This document shows positions 1,744-39,573 of a stretch of DNA of 44,494 bases, piece by piece. The stretch spans positions 1 to 44,494 of the forward strand of contig DUEN01000010.1 of the NCBI GenBank assembly GCA_011176545.1. The letters are read 5' to 3'. Numbering within the stretch: the first letter of the stretch is position 1; the number at the start of each line of letters is the position of its first letter. Source of the DNA: Caldilineae bacterium (GTDB lineage Bacteria; Chloroflexota; Anaerolineae; DUEN01). Below the pieces are notes generated by a model. The model saw only the letters and a list, made by a program, of their open reading frames with translations, searched no databases and was not told the origin of the DNA. Made by a program: the position numbers and the translations under genes.

Positions 1744-3411
1744 CTAGCGTCCTCCGTCTGCCCCGAAGAAGTGGTCCTCCAGCATGGCGCAAAGCGTATG
1801 ATAGATCAGGATGTGCTGCTCCTGCACGCGGTCAGTCTGCCGGCCAGGGGCGTGGATGGTGACGTCCGCCAACCGGCTGAGCTCACTCTCCCGCTCACCC
1901 GTCAGCGCGATCACGTGGAGCCCCAGCGCCCGGGCCACCCGCGCGGCATGGCATACGTTCCTGGCGTTGCCGCTGGTGGAGATGCCCAGGAAGACGTCAC
2001 CCGGCCGGGCCAGCGCGTACAACTCCTGCGCCATCCCCATGGCCCGCTCGGGATTGTCGTTATCCACGGCGCTGGCCAGCGAGGGGTTCGCTCCCAGGAC
2101 GACAGCGCGCAACCCGCCCTCGAGGTGCTCCGGGAGCACACGCCCTCCGGGGACGGCGGCGAGCCGCTGGCGGACCCGCTCGGGCAAGGGACGGGGCCGG
2201 GCGTACGATTTCAGCAGCTCGCCGGATATGTGCAGTGCATCAGCCATGCTGCCGCCATTCCCGCCTAGGAAGAGGATACCGCCCCGTTCCAGGCTATGGA
2301 CGATGATCCGAAACGCCTGAGCCAGCGTCGATGTGACATCCCGAAGCTGCGGGGAGCGTTCCGTCAACGCGCGCAGTTGCTCGGCCGCGGCGGGGGAATC
2401 CCGGCCCAGGGCAGCGATGGGATCCTCCTCCAACCGCTGCGAGGGGAGCGGCACCCGATCCAGGGCGGCCACTACGCGATGATGGAGATTCGGGATCGTC
2501 TCCTTATGGTCTCCTGTGATGTGGAATCCTTTGCCGCCCAACGAGGTCGGACGATTGACGATGTTCTTGCGCGGCCGGTAATAGTAGACAGGCTCATCCG
2601 GCCCTACTTTGCTGCGATAATCCCCCAGCGGGATCAGGTCGAAGTTTGCCGTGGTGATGTGAGCGACGGTGTAGCCCAGGTTGCGCGCGATGGACAGCGC
2701 CTTCAGGAACACCTCCGGCCCGGTGACGGCGGATCCGAAGTTGAGGAAGACGCCGCCCTCCAACTCGCTGACGGAGGCGCAGTAGATCTTAAAATCCTGC
2801 CCGGAGGCCCACCCCAGGATGCCGAAATCGCACATCGGATGCTGGTGGATGATATCGGTGCCGATAGTGACGTGCACAGTGAAGGGGATGCCCAGCCGGT
2901 AGGCGGTGTAGGCGATGCTGATGTCGCGATGTTGGAAACGGGGGTCCTCGGCGATGAAGCGGCCGATGGACTCACCGTAACCCAGGCCAAGGTGCGCGCC
3001 CTCACGCAGTGCCTGGTGCATCAGCGCGCTCGTCTCCTCCACCATACCGAACGTGCCGTCCTCAATGGAGGTGGCGACGTCCTCGCTGGTCTCCCCGATC
3101 AGGGCCAGCTCGAAGTCGTGGATGGAGCCGGCCCCGTTGGTGGCCACATGGGTCACGATGCCACGCTCCATCAGGTCGATCAGCAATCGGGATAGGCCGC
3201 ACTTGATGACATGGGCGCCCATCATCCAGATGACGGGACGGCCGGCGCGACGCGCGGCGACGATACGGTCGGCCACCTCGTCCAGCTCCGGGTTATCGAA
3301 GGGAGGGGCCGGCGCGGCCGGATCCACGAGATCTTTCAGCGTCACCAGATTGCGACGCTCGCTTATGGGATACGTACGAATACCCGTCAGCTCTAATGCT
3401 CGGTAAGGCAT
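1744..3411 (-). CDS. GmhA-like sedoheptulose-7-phosphate isomerase fused to a DHS-like domain
   Basis: 555-residue two-domain protein. Residues about 355-550 form a SIS domain of the GmhA type (sedoheptulose 7-phosphate to D-glycero-D-manno-heptose 7-phosphate), with FLGGNGGSMADALH, ISTSGNARNV, an ALTGERESELSRLADV strand, and the RVQEQHILIYHTL helix typical of GmhA. Residues 1-330 form a separate domain with a Rossmann-like start (VIWMMGAHVIKCG), NGAGSIHDFELA, IGTDIIHQHP and EGGVFLNFGSAV. I associate these motifs only loosely with the deoxyhypusine-synthase-like NAD-binding fold, so its function is unknown. The ATG at 3411 is preferred over the upstream TTG at 3435 because GGAG and GAGG lie just before it. 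It heads the heptose operon. The isomerase call is firm; the N-terminal domain is not identified. Confidence 0.8.
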   Translation of the reverse strand: MPYRALELTGIRTYPISERRNLVTLKDLVDPAAPAPPFDNPELDEVADRIVAARRAGRPVIWMMGAHVIKCGLSRLLIDLMERGIVTHVATNGAGSIHDFELALIGETSEDVATSIEDGTFGMVEETSALMHQALREGAHLGLGYGESIGRFIAEDPRFQHRDISIAYTAYRLGIPFTVHVTIGTDIIHQHPMCDFGILGWASGQDFKIYCASVSELEGGVFLNFGSAVTGPEVFLKALSIARNLGYTVAHITTANFDLIPLGDYRSKVGPDEPVYYYRPRKNIVNRPTSLGGKGFHITGDHKETIPNLHHRVVAALDRVPLPSQRLEEDPIAALGRDSPAAAEQLRALTERSPQLRDVTSTLAQAFRIIVHSLERGGILFLGGNGGSMADALHISGELLKSYARPRPLPERVRQRLAAVPGGRVLPEHLEGGLRAVVLGANPSLASAVDNDNPERAMGMAQELYALARPGDVFLGISTSGNARNVCHAARVARALGLHVIALTGERESELSRLADVTIHAPGRQTDRVQEQHILIYHTLCAMLEDHFFGADGGR

Positions 3412-3438
3412 AGTCCTCAATCTCCAATCAACCAATCT

Positions 3439-7166: not shown

Positions 7167-7763
7167 GTGAACGAGCCGGAATCAACCTGGATCCAGGAAG
7201 CTCAAAGGGGAGATCGCGCGGCGTTCGCGAAGCTAGTAGAGAGCTACCAAACGATGGTTTACAATCTGGCCTACCGCATGTTAGGCAATGCCGCCGAGGC
7301 CGAGGATGCGGCCCAGGAGACGTTTCTGCGTGCCTACACCCGTCTGCATACATACCGTCCCGAATACAAGTTCTCAACGTGGCTCCTCTCCATCGCATCT
7401 CACTATTGTATCGACCAGCTCCGTCGGCGGCGGCTCACCTGGCTCTCCACGGACGAGGAACCCGTCCGACGTGCATTGCACGCCCAGATGGGGGCCGAGT
7501 CGCCGGAGAGGGCCGCGCTGGAGGCCGAACGCCGCGAGGAGATACAGGCCATGCTCAACGCGCTGGATCCGATGTATCGCGCGCCGATCATCCTGCGCTA
7601 TTGGTACGATCTCTCGTACAGGGAGATCGCCGAGGTCATGGGCATCACGGAGGCCGCGGTGAAGACTCGCCTGCACCGCGCCCGCCTCCAGTTGGCGCGT
7701 CACATGCAAGAAGGCGCGACCGACGCGACGATGCCCACGACCGCGGCAAACGAGTCATCGTGA
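7167..7763 (+). CDS. ECF-subfamily RNA polymerase sigma factor
   Basis: 198-residue sigma-70 family factor. Region 2 runs from AAFAKLVESYQTMVYNLAYRMLGNAAEAEDAAQETF to the FSTWLLSIASHYCIDQLRRRR recognition helix. Region 4 is LNALDPMYRAPIILRYW with the helix-turn-helix LSYREIAEVMGITEAAVKTRLHRAR. The GTG at 7167 is chosen because AAGG lies 8 nt upstream and the product then starts like typical ECF factors (MNEPESTWIQEAQRGDRAAF). GTG 7158 is an alternative, and a longer frame back to 7011 adds unrelated sequence. It is followed 9 bp later by its probable anti-sigma gene. The region 4 sequence and the promoter suggest a SigW/RpoE-type envelope-stress factor. Confidence 0.93.
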   Translation: MNEPESTWIQEAQRGDRAAFAKLVESYQTMVYNLAYRMLGNAAEAEDAAQETFLRAYTRLHTYRPEYKFSTWLLSIASHYCIDQLRRRRLTWLSTDEEPVRRALHAQMGAESPERAALEAERREEIQAMLNALDPMYRAPIILRYWYDLSYREIAEVMGITEAAVKTRLHRARLQLARHMQEGATDATMPTTAANESS

Positions 7764-7772
7764 GGGTATGTC

Positions 7773-8339
7773 ATGACCCATGCGGACTACACGATGTGGA
7801 TGTCACTGGCCCTGGACGATATGTTGACTCCGGAAGAGCGTAGGACGCTGGAACAACATCTGTCGAGATGCCCATCATGTCGCGCGCTGTGGGAGGAGTG
7901 GCGCCAGATCGATCTGAAGATGCGGGCCATCCCGATGCAGGCGGCCCCGCCCGGGTTCGCCGCACAGGTGGAGGCCCGGCTGCGCGCCCATGAGCTTCGC
8001 CGCCGAGGTATCGCTGGCGGGTTGCTCGCGCTGATCGGATCGACCATCATCTGGTCCGCCCTGCTCATCGCGAGCGGGCTGGCGGGGGTCTGGTGGCTCG
8101 CCCACCATCCACAGGTACTCATCCAGTGCGCGCGCTTCCTCATCACGGCCATCACCGCCGTGTCCATGCTGATTCGGGCTGCGGCGCTGCTATGGGAGGG
8201 CCTCATGGCCTCACCGCTGCAGCCCCTCTTCCTGGCCTATGTGAGCTTCCTACTTGTGCTGGCCATCCTATGGGCATACGTGATCCGATGGCACAGGCCG
8301 GGAGCCAATTCAGGAGCGGGACGACGCCTCGTCCCTTAA
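7773..8339 (+). CDS. Zinc-finger (zf-HC2) transmembrane anti-sigma factor
   Basis: 188-residue membrane protein. The N-terminal cytoplasmic part has the anti-sigma zinc motif HLSRCPSCRALW (HxxxCxxC) preceded by the family-typical MSLALDDMLTPEERRTLEQ helix. Three hydrophobic segments follow at about residues 80-110, 115-140 and 150-170. The anti-sigma factor would hold the upstream ECF sigma factor at the membrane until an envelope signal releases it. The position 9 bp after the sigma gene and the zf-HC2 signature make the pairing firm. No extracytoplasmic sensor domain is present, so sensing must involve the membrane segments or a partner such as the downstream bactofilin-like protein. Confidence 0.88.
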   Translation: MTHADYTMWMSLALDDMLTPEERRTLEQHLSRCPSCRALWEEWRQIDLKMRAIPMQAAPPGFAAQVEARLRAHELRRRGIAGGLLALIGSTIIWSALLIASGLAGVWWLAHHPQVLIQCARFLITAITAVSMLIRAAALLWEGLMASPLQPLFLAYVSFLLVLAILWAYVIRWHRPGANSGAGRRLVP

Positions 8340-8361
8340 CCTTTCCGCTCATACATGTACT

Positions 8362-8390
8362 GTAGGGGCGCAGCGGTGTTGCGCCTCTAC
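8362..8390. repeat. Palindromic interspersed repeat, GTAGGGGCGCA family
   Basis: GTAGGGGCGCA and TGCGCCTCTAC form an 11-bp stem with one mismatch and a 7-nt loop. It lies between the anti-sigma and bactofilin-like genes. A near-identical palindrome occurs at 21630-21655, so this is a dispersed repeat family. It could act as a transcript hairpin. Confidence 0.65.
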
Positions 8391-8484
8391 TCCAGGTAGT
8401 AAAGGTCTCATCTTAGAATCACAGGCGTGCATATCCCAATTGTAAGTGCACCTTTCTTACTGGACTTCCATCAGGGAGGATGTC

Positions 8485-16210: not shown

Positions 16211-17758
16211 TTACCGCGCGGGCGGCCGACGGGGGTCTATGCCCTGCTTCAAGTTAAGCATCGCGGATCGCAGCCCGGCCTTCGCCACGCCCAACAAGAA
16301 GGGATGCGAGGCCGGCGGCGCATCATGGAGATGGGCGGCGGTCCAGATGGCCAATCCGGCCAGTTCCATCTCCCCGGCCAGATGTAGCCATTGTCCCATG
16401 CGGTGTAGCCGTTGAGCCATGAGCCCCACAGCCTCGTCCGTGAACGCGCGGCCGGCGATCTCACAAGCCGTATCCCGGATCGCCTCATCGTCAGGCCATC
16501 CGCCGTGCTCGTGAATCAGCGCCTCCGCGATATCGTAAACCCAGGGACGCTGCACGCCCCAGGCGGAGAAGGCTGGATGCTCGAGCAACCGCCTGGAGTA
16601 CTCCAGCGGCCAGTCCTCCGCCGGCGTATCGGGCGACACCAGAGGCACTTCCTCAGGAGACCAGGGAATCGCCCATATGTGCCCGCTGTAGAATCGATAG
16701 GGCATAGGCAGGGGACGCCCCTCCCTTAGATGCACCGTAAGCCCTTCCGCCAATATCCGACGCCCCTCGTCAAAAGGCACCTCTAGTAGCAGGGCGATCA
16801 TGCCCATCTGAGGCATGCGCAGAAGATGCACGGTGCCGATGGCCTGCTCCCGCATCGGCTGAGTGAACGGCAACCGCTCATCCCCCAGAGCGTATTGAAT
16901 CCCCGTCTGATCATGAAGCAGAACGGAGACGAACAATCCCTCCTCCTCTTCCGGCGAAGAGCGTATGAACCATAACGACTGATACCCCTCGCTGTCGATG
17001 GGGCTGAGCAGAGCCCGCCAGGCTGATGCTTCTAGAGAAGACTCTGGGACGCCGCTCAATCTCAACTTACGCAGGCTGCGCTCCGCCAGGGATTTGAGGT
17101 CCTCAGGCAGATGAGGCAGCAAACTCCGCAGGGCGACGAGCGCCGCGGAGATGCGGAGCCCTCCCAGTTGCTGCAAGGCATGTCGAGCCACGCGCGGGCG
17201 CGGGTCCATGGCCAGCATCCGAAGCAGCTCCACCACGTCATCCGGACTCACCCGTCGCGTCGCGTCGATGATCATCAAAGCGGCCTCTACAGGTTCCTGC
17301 TCCAATTGGGTCAGATACTCTACGAGGACCTGGGGGTCGTCCCGGATCTCGCTTAACGCCTCGCGCAGGGACTCCAGGGCCAGCGTATGCGGGTCCGCGA
17401 GCCCCTCGAAGAACTCCGGGCCCAGTTCCTCCCCCAGGAAGCGCTCAAGGATGGTCATCGCCGTCATCCGCTCGCGATCGGATCGGGTGCGGTCGCGAGC
17501 CGCGGCTCGCAGCGCCGGCACGACCTTCTCACGTGGCAACATGCGGGCGATATGCGCCAGGCCGCCACGTAGCTGAGGGTCCGCTGTACCTAACTGGGCC
17601 AACAGTGCGGGAAGGACGACCTCCCCATGCTGAGCAATCTCGGCCGCTCGCTGGATCAGCTCCTCCTCGCTGTTCGTCTCGCTCAGCGCCTTGATCGCCT
17701 GCTCGATCTGACGACGTTGCTGAAAGACGGTGATGATCTTGGAATCCTGTGAACTCAT
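16211..17758 (-). CDS. HEAT-repeat-like protein of unknown function
   Basis: 515-residue soluble protein. The first 230 residues are helical pairs of HEAT/armadillo type (for example LPALLAQLGTADPQLRGGLAHIARML, VARHALQQLGGLRISAALVALRSLLPHL). The C-terminal half is not recognised; it contains a beta-rich part (SLWFIRSSPEEEEGLFVSVLLHDQTGIQ) and a helical end (GWPDDEAIRDTACEIAGRAF...). It follows the receiver-ATPase fusion by 34 bp and is probably the last gene of that operon. A scaffold role for the ATPase is conceivable but unproven. The start ATG at 17758 has GAGG close by. Confidence 0.7.
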   Translation of the reverse strand: MSSQDSKIITVFQQRRQIEQAIKALSETNSEEELIQRAAEIAQHGEVVLPALLAQLGTADPQLRGGLAHIARMLPREKVVPALRAAARDRTRSDRERMTAMTILERFLGEELGPEFFEGLADPHTLALESLREALSEIRDDPQVLVEYLTQLEQEPVEAALMIIDATRRVSPDDVVELLRMLAMDPRPRVARHALQQLGGLRISAALVALRSLLPHLPEDLKSLAERSLRKLRLSGVPESSLEASAWRALLSPIDSEGYQSLWFIRSSPEEEEGLFVSVLLHDQTGIQYALGDERLPFTQPMREQAIGTVHLLRMPQMGMIALLLEVPFDEGRRILAEGLTVHLREGRPLPMPYRFYSGHIWAIPWSPEEVPLVSPDTPAEDWPLEYSRRLLEHPAFSAWGVQRPWVYDIAEALIHEHGGWPDDEAIRDTACEIAGRAFTDEAVGLMAQRLHRMGQWLHLAGEMELAGLAIWTAAHLHDAPPASHPFLLGVAKAGLRSAMLNLKQGIDPRRPPAR

Positions 17759-17792
17759 CCGCCTCTGCCCTTGCCGTGATGAAACGGGGTCA

Positions 17793-18998
17793 TTATTTCA
17801 TTCTGAACGGAGACACGCCCAATTGATGAAGCACACTCTGGATAAACGCCCAGGGTCTCTGCCCCGCCGGCTCCTGCTGATCGCCACGCCGCAATGACTG
17901 AGCCAACTGTACAATCCCCCGAGCGAGCCGGCTCCGCGGCGAGCGAAGCACCAGGGGGACCCCGGCGTTGATCGACGAGAGCACCCGCCTGGGATCATAG
18001 GGGAGCTGAACCATGGCGTAGCTCTTCAATTCAGAAGGAAAGTCCTCAACGGTGAGGCCGCCCCTTCGATCGGCCTGATTCACGATGAGCCGATACTCCC
18101 TACCCACATCCATATAACCACCAGGCCGCTCCGAGGCGACGGATTCCAGAAGCACCTCGGCGCGGCGCAGGGCGGTCAACTCTGGAGTGACCACGATCAG
18201 GACATGCTCGGCCTGCTGAACCAGCGACCTCACCTGATCGCCGGGCGTCTCCGGCGCATCGATGATCACATAGGATTGCCGCTCAGCCATCGCGCTAAGG
18301 ATGGGGGTCAGGAACTCGGGATCGGACGGACGATCGAATCCCTCCGCGGGGGCCGAGATCAATTGCAGGCCCGACTCGTGCTTACAAAAGACCCTTTCGA
18401 TCATCTCGATTTCAATCTCATCCCCGTAGCTGATCAGATCGGCCAACGTATGCTCGGGCTGTAAACCCAGATGGATCGCCGGGTCTCCTCCTGGGATCTC
18501 CGCGTCAATCAGGATGACGTCCTCTCGCCAACGGTGTGCCAACGCCACACCCACGTTGACGGCAATGGTGGTCGCCCCCACGCCTGCCTTCGCCCCGATG
18601 ACCAGGATCACCACAGGATGGGGGACCTGTTCATACCGAAGCAGCGAGCGCACGCGAAAGATCAGCTCCGTCGTGTCTGCAGGCTTCGTCAAATAGGCAC
18701 TGGCTCCATGTTCTAGCCCGCGTACGATGTCCTCACGCCGGCGCAATCGGGACAGGATGAGGATAGGGCGCGTGCGTCCACCAGGCAAAAGGTGTAGACG
18801 GCGGCACAAATCAAAGCCTGCCCCATCCTCGATCGCCGGCTCTAACACGATGAGATCAGGCTTCTCCCGGCGGGCCGCCTTCAGACCCTGAGCGACCGTA
18901 TAGGCATCAATGATCTGATGGCCGTGAGGCTGCAGCGTGAGCTTTACGAAAAGGTGAGTATCATCATCATCGTCGATGACGAGGATACGTGGGCTCAT
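17793..18998 (-). CDS. Degenerate receiver fused to TadZ/CpaE-like ATPase
   Basis: 401-residue fusion. Residues 1-122 form a receiver fold (ILVIDDDDD start, TKP Lys at 105), but the phosphorylation site Asp is Glu (E53 in LIVLEP), a natural phosphomimic. Residues 129-370 form a MinD/ParA-type ATPase with a deviant P-loop G135-A-K-A-G-V-G-A-T-T144: the signature Lys (K137) is present while the second P-loop Lys is replaced by Ala. VILIDAEIPGGD and YVIIDAPETPG provide the other core strands. This layout is that of CpaE/TadZ, which localise type IV/Tad pilus machines, but no pilus genes lie nearby. The ATG overlaps the exonuclease stop as ATGA, so translation is coupled. Confidence 0.85.
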   Translation of the reverse strand: MSPRILVIDDDDDTHLFVKLTLQPHGHQIIDAYTVAQGLKAARREKPDLIVLEPAIEDGAGFDLCRRLHLLPGGRTRPILILSRLRRREDIVRGLEHGASAYLTKPADTTELIFRVRSLLRYEQVPHPVVILVIGAKAGVGATTIAVNVGVALAHRWREDVILIDAEIPGGDPAIHLGLQPEHTLADLISYGDEIEIEMIERVFCKHESGLQLISAPAEGFDRPSDPEFLTPILSAMAERQSYVIIDAPETPGDQVRSLVQQAEHVLIVVTPELTALRRAEVLLESVASERPGGYMDVGREYRLIVNQADRRGGLTVEDFPSELKSYAMVQLPYDPRRVLSSINAGVPLVLRSPRSRLARGIVQLAQSLRRGDQQEPAGQRPWAFIQSVLHQLGVSPFRMK

Positions 18999-19870
18999 GT
19001 ATCGAGCTGCCCCCATCGCCTGGGGTGGTCAAGATGAGAAGCGTCATCGTCCAGGCGCATCTCCAAAATGCGATCCAATCGAAACGTCCGCTGGGCACCC
19101 CGCAGGTGACAGTAAGCGATCAGATAGCCGTTGCTCACGTCCAGCGGCTGCACCCACCGCTCCGTCAGCCCCTGATACGGGCTCAGGTAACGAAGCCAAA
19201 GCCTGCGCCCGCGGCGCAGAGCCTCCTGTAGTGGCGAAGGAAGATGATCCCACGTCACGCTAGGCCAGTGCATAGGCCCGCCCTGGGCCCTGATCAGATC
19301 CGCCAACGTGGCAGCGCCACGGACGCCGAGGAGGTAGACAAGTGAACGCAACACCTCCCACGTCGCCTGAGCGTCCTCGAGCGCGCGATGGGCGTCACGG
19401 ATGGAGACGTTCAGCGCTCGGGCGACGGAACCCAGGCTGTATCGCGGCAACCGCAGCCAGCGCCGGGCCAGGGTTAGCGTATCGATGACATACACTGGGG
19501 GAGGAGGCCAGCGTAGCCGCCGCCACTCCGCGGCCAGGAAGCCTAAATCGAACGACGCGTTATGACCAACGATCACCGCGTCATCGAGCCAATCGCGTAT
19601 CACGGGCGCGATCTCCTCAAAGCGCGGTGCGCTCCATAGCACTTCGTCGGGTATGCGATGTACGGCGCGAGCACCGGGATCAACGGGACGCTCCGGATTC
19701 ACATACTGGCGAAACGTGCTCACGTCGCCATCGAGCGTACCGCGCACGATGGCGATCTCGCAAATCCGATGTCCCAGGCTGGGATCAAGCCCCGTCGTCT
19801 CGACGTCGACGACGGCGAATGTGACCGCCTCCAATGGTAGGGAGAGCCATAAGCCGGACGAAGCGCGCAT
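18995..19870 (-). CDS. DnaQ-type 3'-5' exonuclease fused to a WYL domain
   Basis: 291-residue fusion. Residues 14-190 are a DEDDh exonuclease: D22 and E24 in VVDVETTGLDP, the third Asp in GHNASFDLGFL, and the DAHRALEDA motif with the catalytic His and last Asp. Residues about 205-275 match a WYL domain: LWLRYLSPYQG, RWVQPLDVSNGYLIAYCHLRG and RTFRLDRILEM. WYL domains are known ligand/nucleic-acid sensors in phage-defence and DNA-repair regulators. Here WYL sits on a nuclease with no helix-turn-helix. The ATG at 19870 fits the family start; the upstream TTG is unlikely. It leads a three-gene operon. Confidence 0.85.
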   Translation of the reverse strand: MRASSGLWLSLPLEAVTFAVVDVETTGLDPSLGHRICEIAIVRGTLDGDVSTFRQYVNPERPVDPGARAVHRIPDEVLWSAPRFEEIAPVIRDWLDDAVIVGHNASFDLGFLAAEWRRLRWPPPPVYVIDTLTLARRWLRLPRYSLGSVARALNVSIRDAHRALEDAQATWEVLRSLVYLLGVRGAATLADLIRAQGGPMHWPSVTWDHLPSPLQEALRRGRRLWLRYLSPYQGLTERWVQPLDVSNGYLIAYCHLRGAQRTFRLDRILEMRLDDDASHLDHPRRWGQLDT

Positions 19871-19970
19871 CTCCTTATCCCCCAGTAACCCGTCCTGGTG
19901 AGCGAACGTCTTCCCAAATAAAGCGAGGTTACAATCTATCCTACCATGCTGACCACGAGGCGTCAATGTG

Positions 19971-38596: not shown

Positions 38597-39573
38597 GGCT
38601 CATGTCCAGATCTAGTGAGAGGCGACGAGAGCCGAGATGAAATCGGGTGTAATTCGCTTCAAGTTGATGCTGAATTCGCACATCGCGACATAGGCACCGA
38701 GGTATTTCTTATGCACACCACGGAAAGGACGCAGAAAGTTACGGACTGTCGTCCACATCCCCTCGGCCGTGTTCACGTGCACTTCTCGCACGCCATCGCC
38801 GTCATCGTCTCGTGCCCATTCCTTTGCTTCATGGGCCACTGTGGCATGGATGCGAATGATATGGTCATAACCAAGCCATTCGTCGGTGAACACAACCGAT
38901 TCAGCCAGGGTAAAGGTGTGCACATGGCGCTCCAGCGTCTTCCGGTCCGTATGGTGCACCACGCGCAGCCGCACCTGGCCACTCTCACGCCCCACCGTGC
39001 CGACAATCAGTGGCCGGTCATTGGCATACGTGCCGTGTCCACGGCGCTTGTTAGCCCGTCTGCGGGGAGGATCGTCAGGATCCCGATGGGGTGCTCCTTT
39101 TTTCCCCCGCATTCTGGAACATCTCGTCCGTCTCCGTCTGCCGGTCTGGTAAGGGAGTCTCAGGCTGCAACCGCTGCGCCTGCGCTTGCAGCACCTTCCG
39201 CATATCGTGCACCGTCTGCCGAGCCACACCAATCTCGCGGGCGATTTGAGCGGTTGGCTCCCCCTTACAGACACCACGCAACAACAAAATGGCCTGGGCA
39301 GGCCGAAAGTGCTTCCCCTGAAACACGGTCCCACTGTAGAGATTGTAAATCCCACCGCACTTACACCGGTACACCTTCAACCGGCTCCTTCGCGTCACAC
39401 GGAAGAGACGTGCCTCCTTCACGTCTCTCCTACAATGGGGACACCGCAACTGCCCCTGGTGGAAGTACTTCAGTAGCCAGGCCTCACTCAGCTCATCGTC
39501 GAATAGGTCTACAATTGGAAGGTCCATGGCCAGAATTATACCATACCACCTGCACCACCTCTGGACATGAGCC
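38597..39573 (-). mobile_element. IS1595-family insertion sequence, complete ends
   Basis: 977-bp element with perfect 14-bp terminal inverted repeats: GGCTCATGTCCAGA at 38597-38610 and its reverse complement at 39560-39573. It is flanked by the 8-bp direct repeat CTGTGAGA. It contains one transposase gene split by a frameshift. It inserted immediately after the FemX-like stop codon, leaving that gene intact. Confidence 0.92.
38612..39527 (-). CDS. IS1595-family transposase, two frames
   Basis: The first frame (39527-39075) carries a zinc ribbon (CPHCRR...YRCKCGGIYN), an HTH-like QIAREIGVARQTVHDM segment and the first catalytic Asp in TETDEMFQNAG. It then runs out of frame at a GGGGG-AAAAAA run (39098-39108) and stops at 39075. 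The rest (39112-38612) lies in another frame: GKKGAPHRDPDD, the second Asp in VFTDEWLGY, and the HVNTAEGMW...GVHKKYLGAYVAMCEF block holding the last catalytic residue. Both frames are needed for a working DDE enzyme. Removing one base in the run joins them. This may be a programmed slip, a polymerase slip or an inactivating mutation. Confidence 0.85.

Follow-up and report, generated by a model that had tools for sequence, protein, structure and literature searches.

Why a TadZ-like ATPase should be encoded between a nuclease and a HEAT-repeat protein, with no pilus genes beside it, is the question raised by a three-gene locus of a Caldilineae bacterium (Chloroflexota; Anaerolineae). The DNA analysed, referred to here as the window, comprises 44,494 nucleotides (positions 1 to 44,494 of contig DUEN01000010.1, assembly GCA_011176545.1). 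Three neighbouring ORFs were confirmed at 16211-19870, all on the minus strand, and Pfam matches bore out the domains that a preliminary description had read in them, namely a DnaQ-type exonuclease with a WYL domain (gene 1), a receiver-TadZ ATPase (gene 2) and a HEAT protein (gene 3). Gene 2 matched both Response_reg (1.2e-16) and AAA_31 (2.4e-9), the latter indicating an AAA_31/ParA-type ATPase. The features of the locus are collected in Table 1.

Table 1. Features of the three-gene locus, in window coordinates
Feature	Position	Strand	Remarks
Promoter-like site TTGACG-17-TAGGAT with TG	19938..19966	-	68 bp upstream of gene 1; consensus match only
Gene 1, DEDDh (DnaQ-type) 3'-5' exonuclease with C-terminal WYL	18995..19870	-	291 aa; RNase_T 7.7e-33, WYL 1.6e-14
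RNase_T / DEDDh exonuclease domain of gene 1	19349..19813	-	residues 20-174
WYL domain of gene 1	19055..19234	-	residues 213-272; PafBC 6sj9 matched over 211-271 at 4.5e-7
Gene 2, receiver-TadZ/MinD-like ATPase (orphan TadZ)	17793..19016	-	407 aa if started at 19016, 401 aa if started within the ATGA (18998)
Receiver domain of gene 2	18651..18986	-	Glu59 codon 18840-18842 at the phospho-acceptor site (VLEP)
Walker A-like motif GAKAGVGATT of gene 2	18567..18596	-	signature Lys kept; P-loop (second) Lys replaced by Ala
C-terminal tail of the gene 2 protein, candidate membrane-targeting helix	17796..17855	-	putative
Gene 3, HEAT protein	16211..17758	-	515 aa; HEAT_2 1.5e-6

The gene 1 stop codon overlaps one of the gene 2 start codons in an ATGA at 18998-18995, a further in-frame ATG lies upstream at 19016, and 34 bp separate genes 2 and 3. 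Translational coupling had been proposed from the overlap, which is indeed present in this genome; in the other three genomes of the family, however, the two genes are separated by gaps of 6, 33 and 18 bp, which rules out the ATGA as a conserved coupling. Genes 1-3 run in the same direction and are probably co-transcribed as one cluster. The divergent neighbour of gene 1 encodes a LysM protein, and the convergent neighbour of gene 3 encodes an OmpR-type regulator that is adjoined by a gene for a GAF-rich histidine kinase. Inspection by eye elsewhere in the window picked out a long minus-strand ORF (1744-3435) that seems to combine a deoxyhypusine-synthase-like domain with a SIS (sugar isomerase) domain, an HldE-like kinase (577-1623) adjoining that ORF, and two overlapping minus-strand ORFs (38612-39527) resembling a frameshifted IS1595-type transposase.

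In all four genomes of the host family that were compared, the trio keeps its gene order and its flanks, although a sample of this size (n = 4) cannot separate shared inheritance from selected linkage. The trio proteins of the family genomes are 45-68% identical, and dN/dS was about 0.12-0.25 for all three genes (NG86; dS near saturation); genes 1-3 therefore all evolve as functional genes. In family genome G058, gene 1 lies at 7636-8472 of locus L032. In G023, another member, the LysM gene, gene 1 and gene 2 are among the genes lying between the HEAT gene and dnaX. Given that G023 still has dnaX, beyond these genes from HEAT, the arrangement suggests that the LysM gene and genes 1 and 2 were inserted between the HEAT gene and its usual divergent partner dnaX.

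Class-wide searches with each of the proteins, combined with neighbourhood comparison, did not find the trio outside its own family, and each of the three genes was found elsewhere without the other two. The conservation that had been put forward as a check on the trio thus holds, with purifying selection, in the four own-family genomes, but does not extend to unrelated lineages, where DnaQ-WYL and HEAT lie apart in housekeeping contexts, an outcome that the preliminary description had itself named as telling against its reading. The DnaQ-WYL protein (~280 aa) was detected in 41 of 199 class genomes at E<1e-44, as well as in a few other phyla. Its neighbours outside the family, named by eye, include rnhB, plsC, glgC and other housekeeping genes; in the loci inspected there, neither TadZ nor HEAT ever adjoined it. 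A contig scan with the DnaQ-WYL alignment recovered relatives from several phyla, nine at most when partial ones are counted with the full ones, none adjoining TadZ or HEAT; the remaining matches consisted of the exonuclease domain only. Chloroflexi records occurred among the relatives of gene 1, which, like the general gene content, fits the placement of the window in Chloroflexota. At five loci of two other families (L116, L121, L123, L125 and L128), DnaQ-WYL lies immediately downstream of an RNase HII-like gene (rnhB; identified by eye).

The HEAT family was found in 49 of the 199 class genomes at about E<=1e-20 and hardly outside the class. Its gene was divergent from dnaX-ybaB-recR in about 16 of the 40 loci inspected (L035-L070; gene names by eye), an arrangement that recurs in several families and is a conserved context wider than the trio. 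In the 199 class genomes, DnaQ-WYL and HEAT were found together about as often as expected by chance (10 seen, 10.1 expected; Fisher p = 1), and this held with the host family left out (6 seen, 8.5 expected; Fisher p = 0.39). The searches, the neighbourhoods and this chance-level co-occurrence rule out the trio as a widespread module.

The DEDDh residues of gene 1 (D22, E24, D108, H161 and D166) were invariant among the 23 homologues compared, and the active site is, by its motifs, intact. The WYL domain scored well above the Pfam gathering cut-off (54.1 bits against 21.8), and its Arg-rich stretch (R..QR.FRLDRI) was invariant or nearly so in the homologue comparison. The full DEDDh motif and an RNase_T match over residues 16-181 liken gene 1 to DnaQ/PolC-type exonucleases (2p1j, 1j53; the DinG exonuclease domain). 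It differs from these in being short and stand-alone, with a C-terminal WYL domain where a polymerase, helicase or other tail stands; gene 1 reached the cut-off of a single one of the NCBIfam models shown, that of the generic dnaq subfamily. The conserved R..QR.FRLDRI stretch and the sequence match to PafBC liken the WYL domain to those of PafBC (6sj9) and bacterial Pif1-WYL, but gene 1 lacks an HTH or WCX and pairs its WYL domain with an exonuclease rather than a transcription factor or helicase. No paper on such a DnaQ-WYL fusion was recognised among those searched. In PafBC, single-stranded DNA (ssDNA) is bound by the WYL domain (PMC11804915), as it is in Thermotoga Pif1 according to work cited in PMC6789036. 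By analogy, our best guess is that gene 1 encodes an exonuclease that would be tethered or gated by nucleic acid, the candidate ligand of its WYL domain.

The gene 2 receiver was reported in the preliminary description to have Glu in place of Asp, and this was confirmed. Glu occupies the acceptor site, and the phospho-acceptor Asp is thus missing, in all four trio copies, in which the acidic pocket, Ser and Lys are retained while the Pro following the acceptor site is lost. The other orphan paralogues compared from the same family have Asp, including two further orphan receiver-TadZ genes of the host genome (contigs C163 and C58). Among the relatives compared, Glu outside the trio was found in only two TadZ proteins, both from one other family. 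These two (L076 and L078, from G082 and G106) represent an independent Asp-to-Glu change, and at least one of them lies in a Tad locus. The P-loop was likewise correctly read as lacking a Lys (GAKAGVGATT), but this gives no clue to function: only 5 of 37 receiver-TadZ relatives keep that Lys, its loss being usual among them and hence ruled out as a sign of a special function, and both Tad-locus TadZ copies of the host genome have Arg at this position. On this comparison, the receiver Glu, and not the loss of the P-loop Lys, is the distinctive trait of the trio TadZ and its most meaningful point.

Trio TadZ copies formed a single clade in the tree, with support of 100/100 and a stem 1.12 changes per site long. 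A short tail follows the ATPase domain in the other three orthologues as well (RIRAVLGRF, RVRSWWSRL and RIRALLGQL, for example) and is similar in all four; such a tail is absent from the closest orphan paralogues and present in Tad-locus TadZ. The gene 2 tail may be a membrane-binding amphipathic element. TadZ/CpaE proteins are described as combining an atypical receiver with a deviant Walker A, through which ATP is bound for dimerisation, and as carrying an amphipathic helix at the C-terminus (PMC13170226). Gene 2 shares with them (Eubacterium rectale TadZ; 3ea0; Caulobacter CpaE) the atypical receiver, MinD-like ATPase, deviant Walker A and amphipathic tail, but departs from them in lying outside any Tad locus, in its long-stem clade and in the receiver Glu of all its copies. 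Aspartate-less receivers of the CmrT / AtvR type also have Glu for the acceptor Asp with the remaining pocket residues kept, whereas the predicted output of gene 2 is a MinD-like ATPase instead of a DNA-binding domain. For several Glu-for-Asp receivers, though not for all, constitutive activity has been judged likely (PMC12548384).

That no pilus genes lie nearby was upheld for the window and the rest of its contig, in which cpaF, tadB, tadC and cpaB were sought and not found, but the host genome does have Tad loci elsewhere, one on contig C124 and one on contig C191, and both include a TadZ of their own. Both loci (L160 on C124 and L134 on C191) contain CpaB, TadZ, TadB and TadC; CpaF was found only at the C124 locus, the C191 contig ending before CpaF could appear. 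In the host class there are often several receiver-TadZ genes per genome, and the protein is the TadZ of Tad loci in some families and an orphan in others.

The HEAT_2 match of gene 3 spans residues 152-230 and exceeds the gathering score; HEAT_2 was detected in 30 of 40 members of the HEAT family. An AlphaFold model of gene 3 (pLDDT 91.6) consists of a helical solenoid (1-240) and a beta-plus-helical C-terminal domain (247-505), the latter also modelled with confidence alone (pLDDT 92.3, pTM 0.90). Whereas the N-terminal half resembles HEAT_2 / alphaRep-like solenoids, the added C-terminal domain sets gene 3 apart from these, and neither the whole protein nor the C-terminal part matched a solved PDB structure at E<=0.001. 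As modelled, the C-terminal domain (window 16244-17020, minus strand) may represent an undescribed fold.

On balance, the reading towards which we lean is that of a family-specific cluster that brings together a repair-type exonuclease, an orphan TadZ in a locked-on state and a scaffold of HEAT repeats, and whose genes would share expression rather than build one machine. Such a cluster would have been assembled once, in the ancestor of the host family, and passed on with its flanks. The WYL domain of gene 1 would most likely bind single-stranded nucleic acid and tether or gate the nuclease in repair, as PafBC and Pif1 suggest. Gene 2 would be a TadZ paralogue that has departed from the pilus, in line with the repeated occurrence of orphan TadZ copies away from Tad loci in the class. 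Its phosphomimetic Glu receiver would probably be always "on" and its P-loop may favour nucleotide binding and dimerisation over turnover, such that gene 2 would serve as a membrane-associated scaffold and not as a switch. Gene 3 would supply a HEAT scaffold from a class-wide family. That genes diverged to 45-68% identity are still adjacent in 4/4 genomes speaks to some degree for a linkage that matters. The same retained adjacency speaks for a genome-maintenance module in which the exonuclease would be brought to the membrane or pole by the TadZ-like ATPase, a HEAT bridge would connect the two and the WYL domain would switch the nuclease on with ssDNA. The replication and repair neighbours of HEAT (dnaX-ybaB-recR) and DnaQ-WYL (rnhB) in other families, and the amphipathic tail that trio-type TadZ shares with Tad-locus TadZ but not with the closest orphan paralogues, point the same way. 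Such a module nevertheless appears doubtful, since DnaQ-WYL and HEAT do not co-occur above chance across the class, many genomes retain one of the genes without the other two, and gene neighbourhood is weak evidence.

That gene 2 still serves the Tad pili of the host, with genes 1 and 3 as bystanders, would accord with the two Tad loci of the genome and with the situation in other bacterial families, where receiver-TadZ proteins of the same protein family are the true TadZ of such loci. This reading is unlikely, because each Tad locus of the host has its own TadZ and the trio copy, on its long stem, stands in a clade apart from these two. The suggestion that the locus might be a stress or defence module found no support as regards defence. 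Some defence loci contain WYL domains and DEDDh nucleases, and PADLOC models match both the RNase_T/DEDDh and WYL domains here, but these are matches to generic domains only. PADLOC found no known whole defence system or defence island at the locus; of ten neighbouring genes, nine matched no defence model and the tenth was an ordinary FtsK. The trio is, moreover, inherited along with conserved housekeeping flanks, its relatives elsewhere sit in housekeeping contexts, and a search of plasmids with the HEAT protein gave no match. A defence association was ruled out by the PADLOC result and the gene context, and a system in which a ligand-gated nuclease would serve anti-phage defence or suicide under stress is regarded as highly improbable.

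Within the favoured reading of a cluster with shared expression, the trio TadZ with its fixed phosphomimetic receiver is a naturally occurring test case for the dependence of TadZ receivers on phosphorylation, and the locus adds to the picture of TadZ-like positioning ATPases that have been uncoupled from pili repeatedly in the host class. Two uncharacterised families are also worth naming, the stand-alone DnaQ-WYL exonuclease of several phyla and the HEAT protein with a structurally unmatched C-terminal domain. It is quite unlikely that a pilus-free ParA/MinD-type ATPase, locked on by its phosphomimetic receiver, anchors and positions an ssDNA-gated exonuclease at the membrane by way of a HEAT bridge; if it did, the anchored exonuclease would constitute a previously undescribed, spatially organised machine for DNA repair or DNA degradation.
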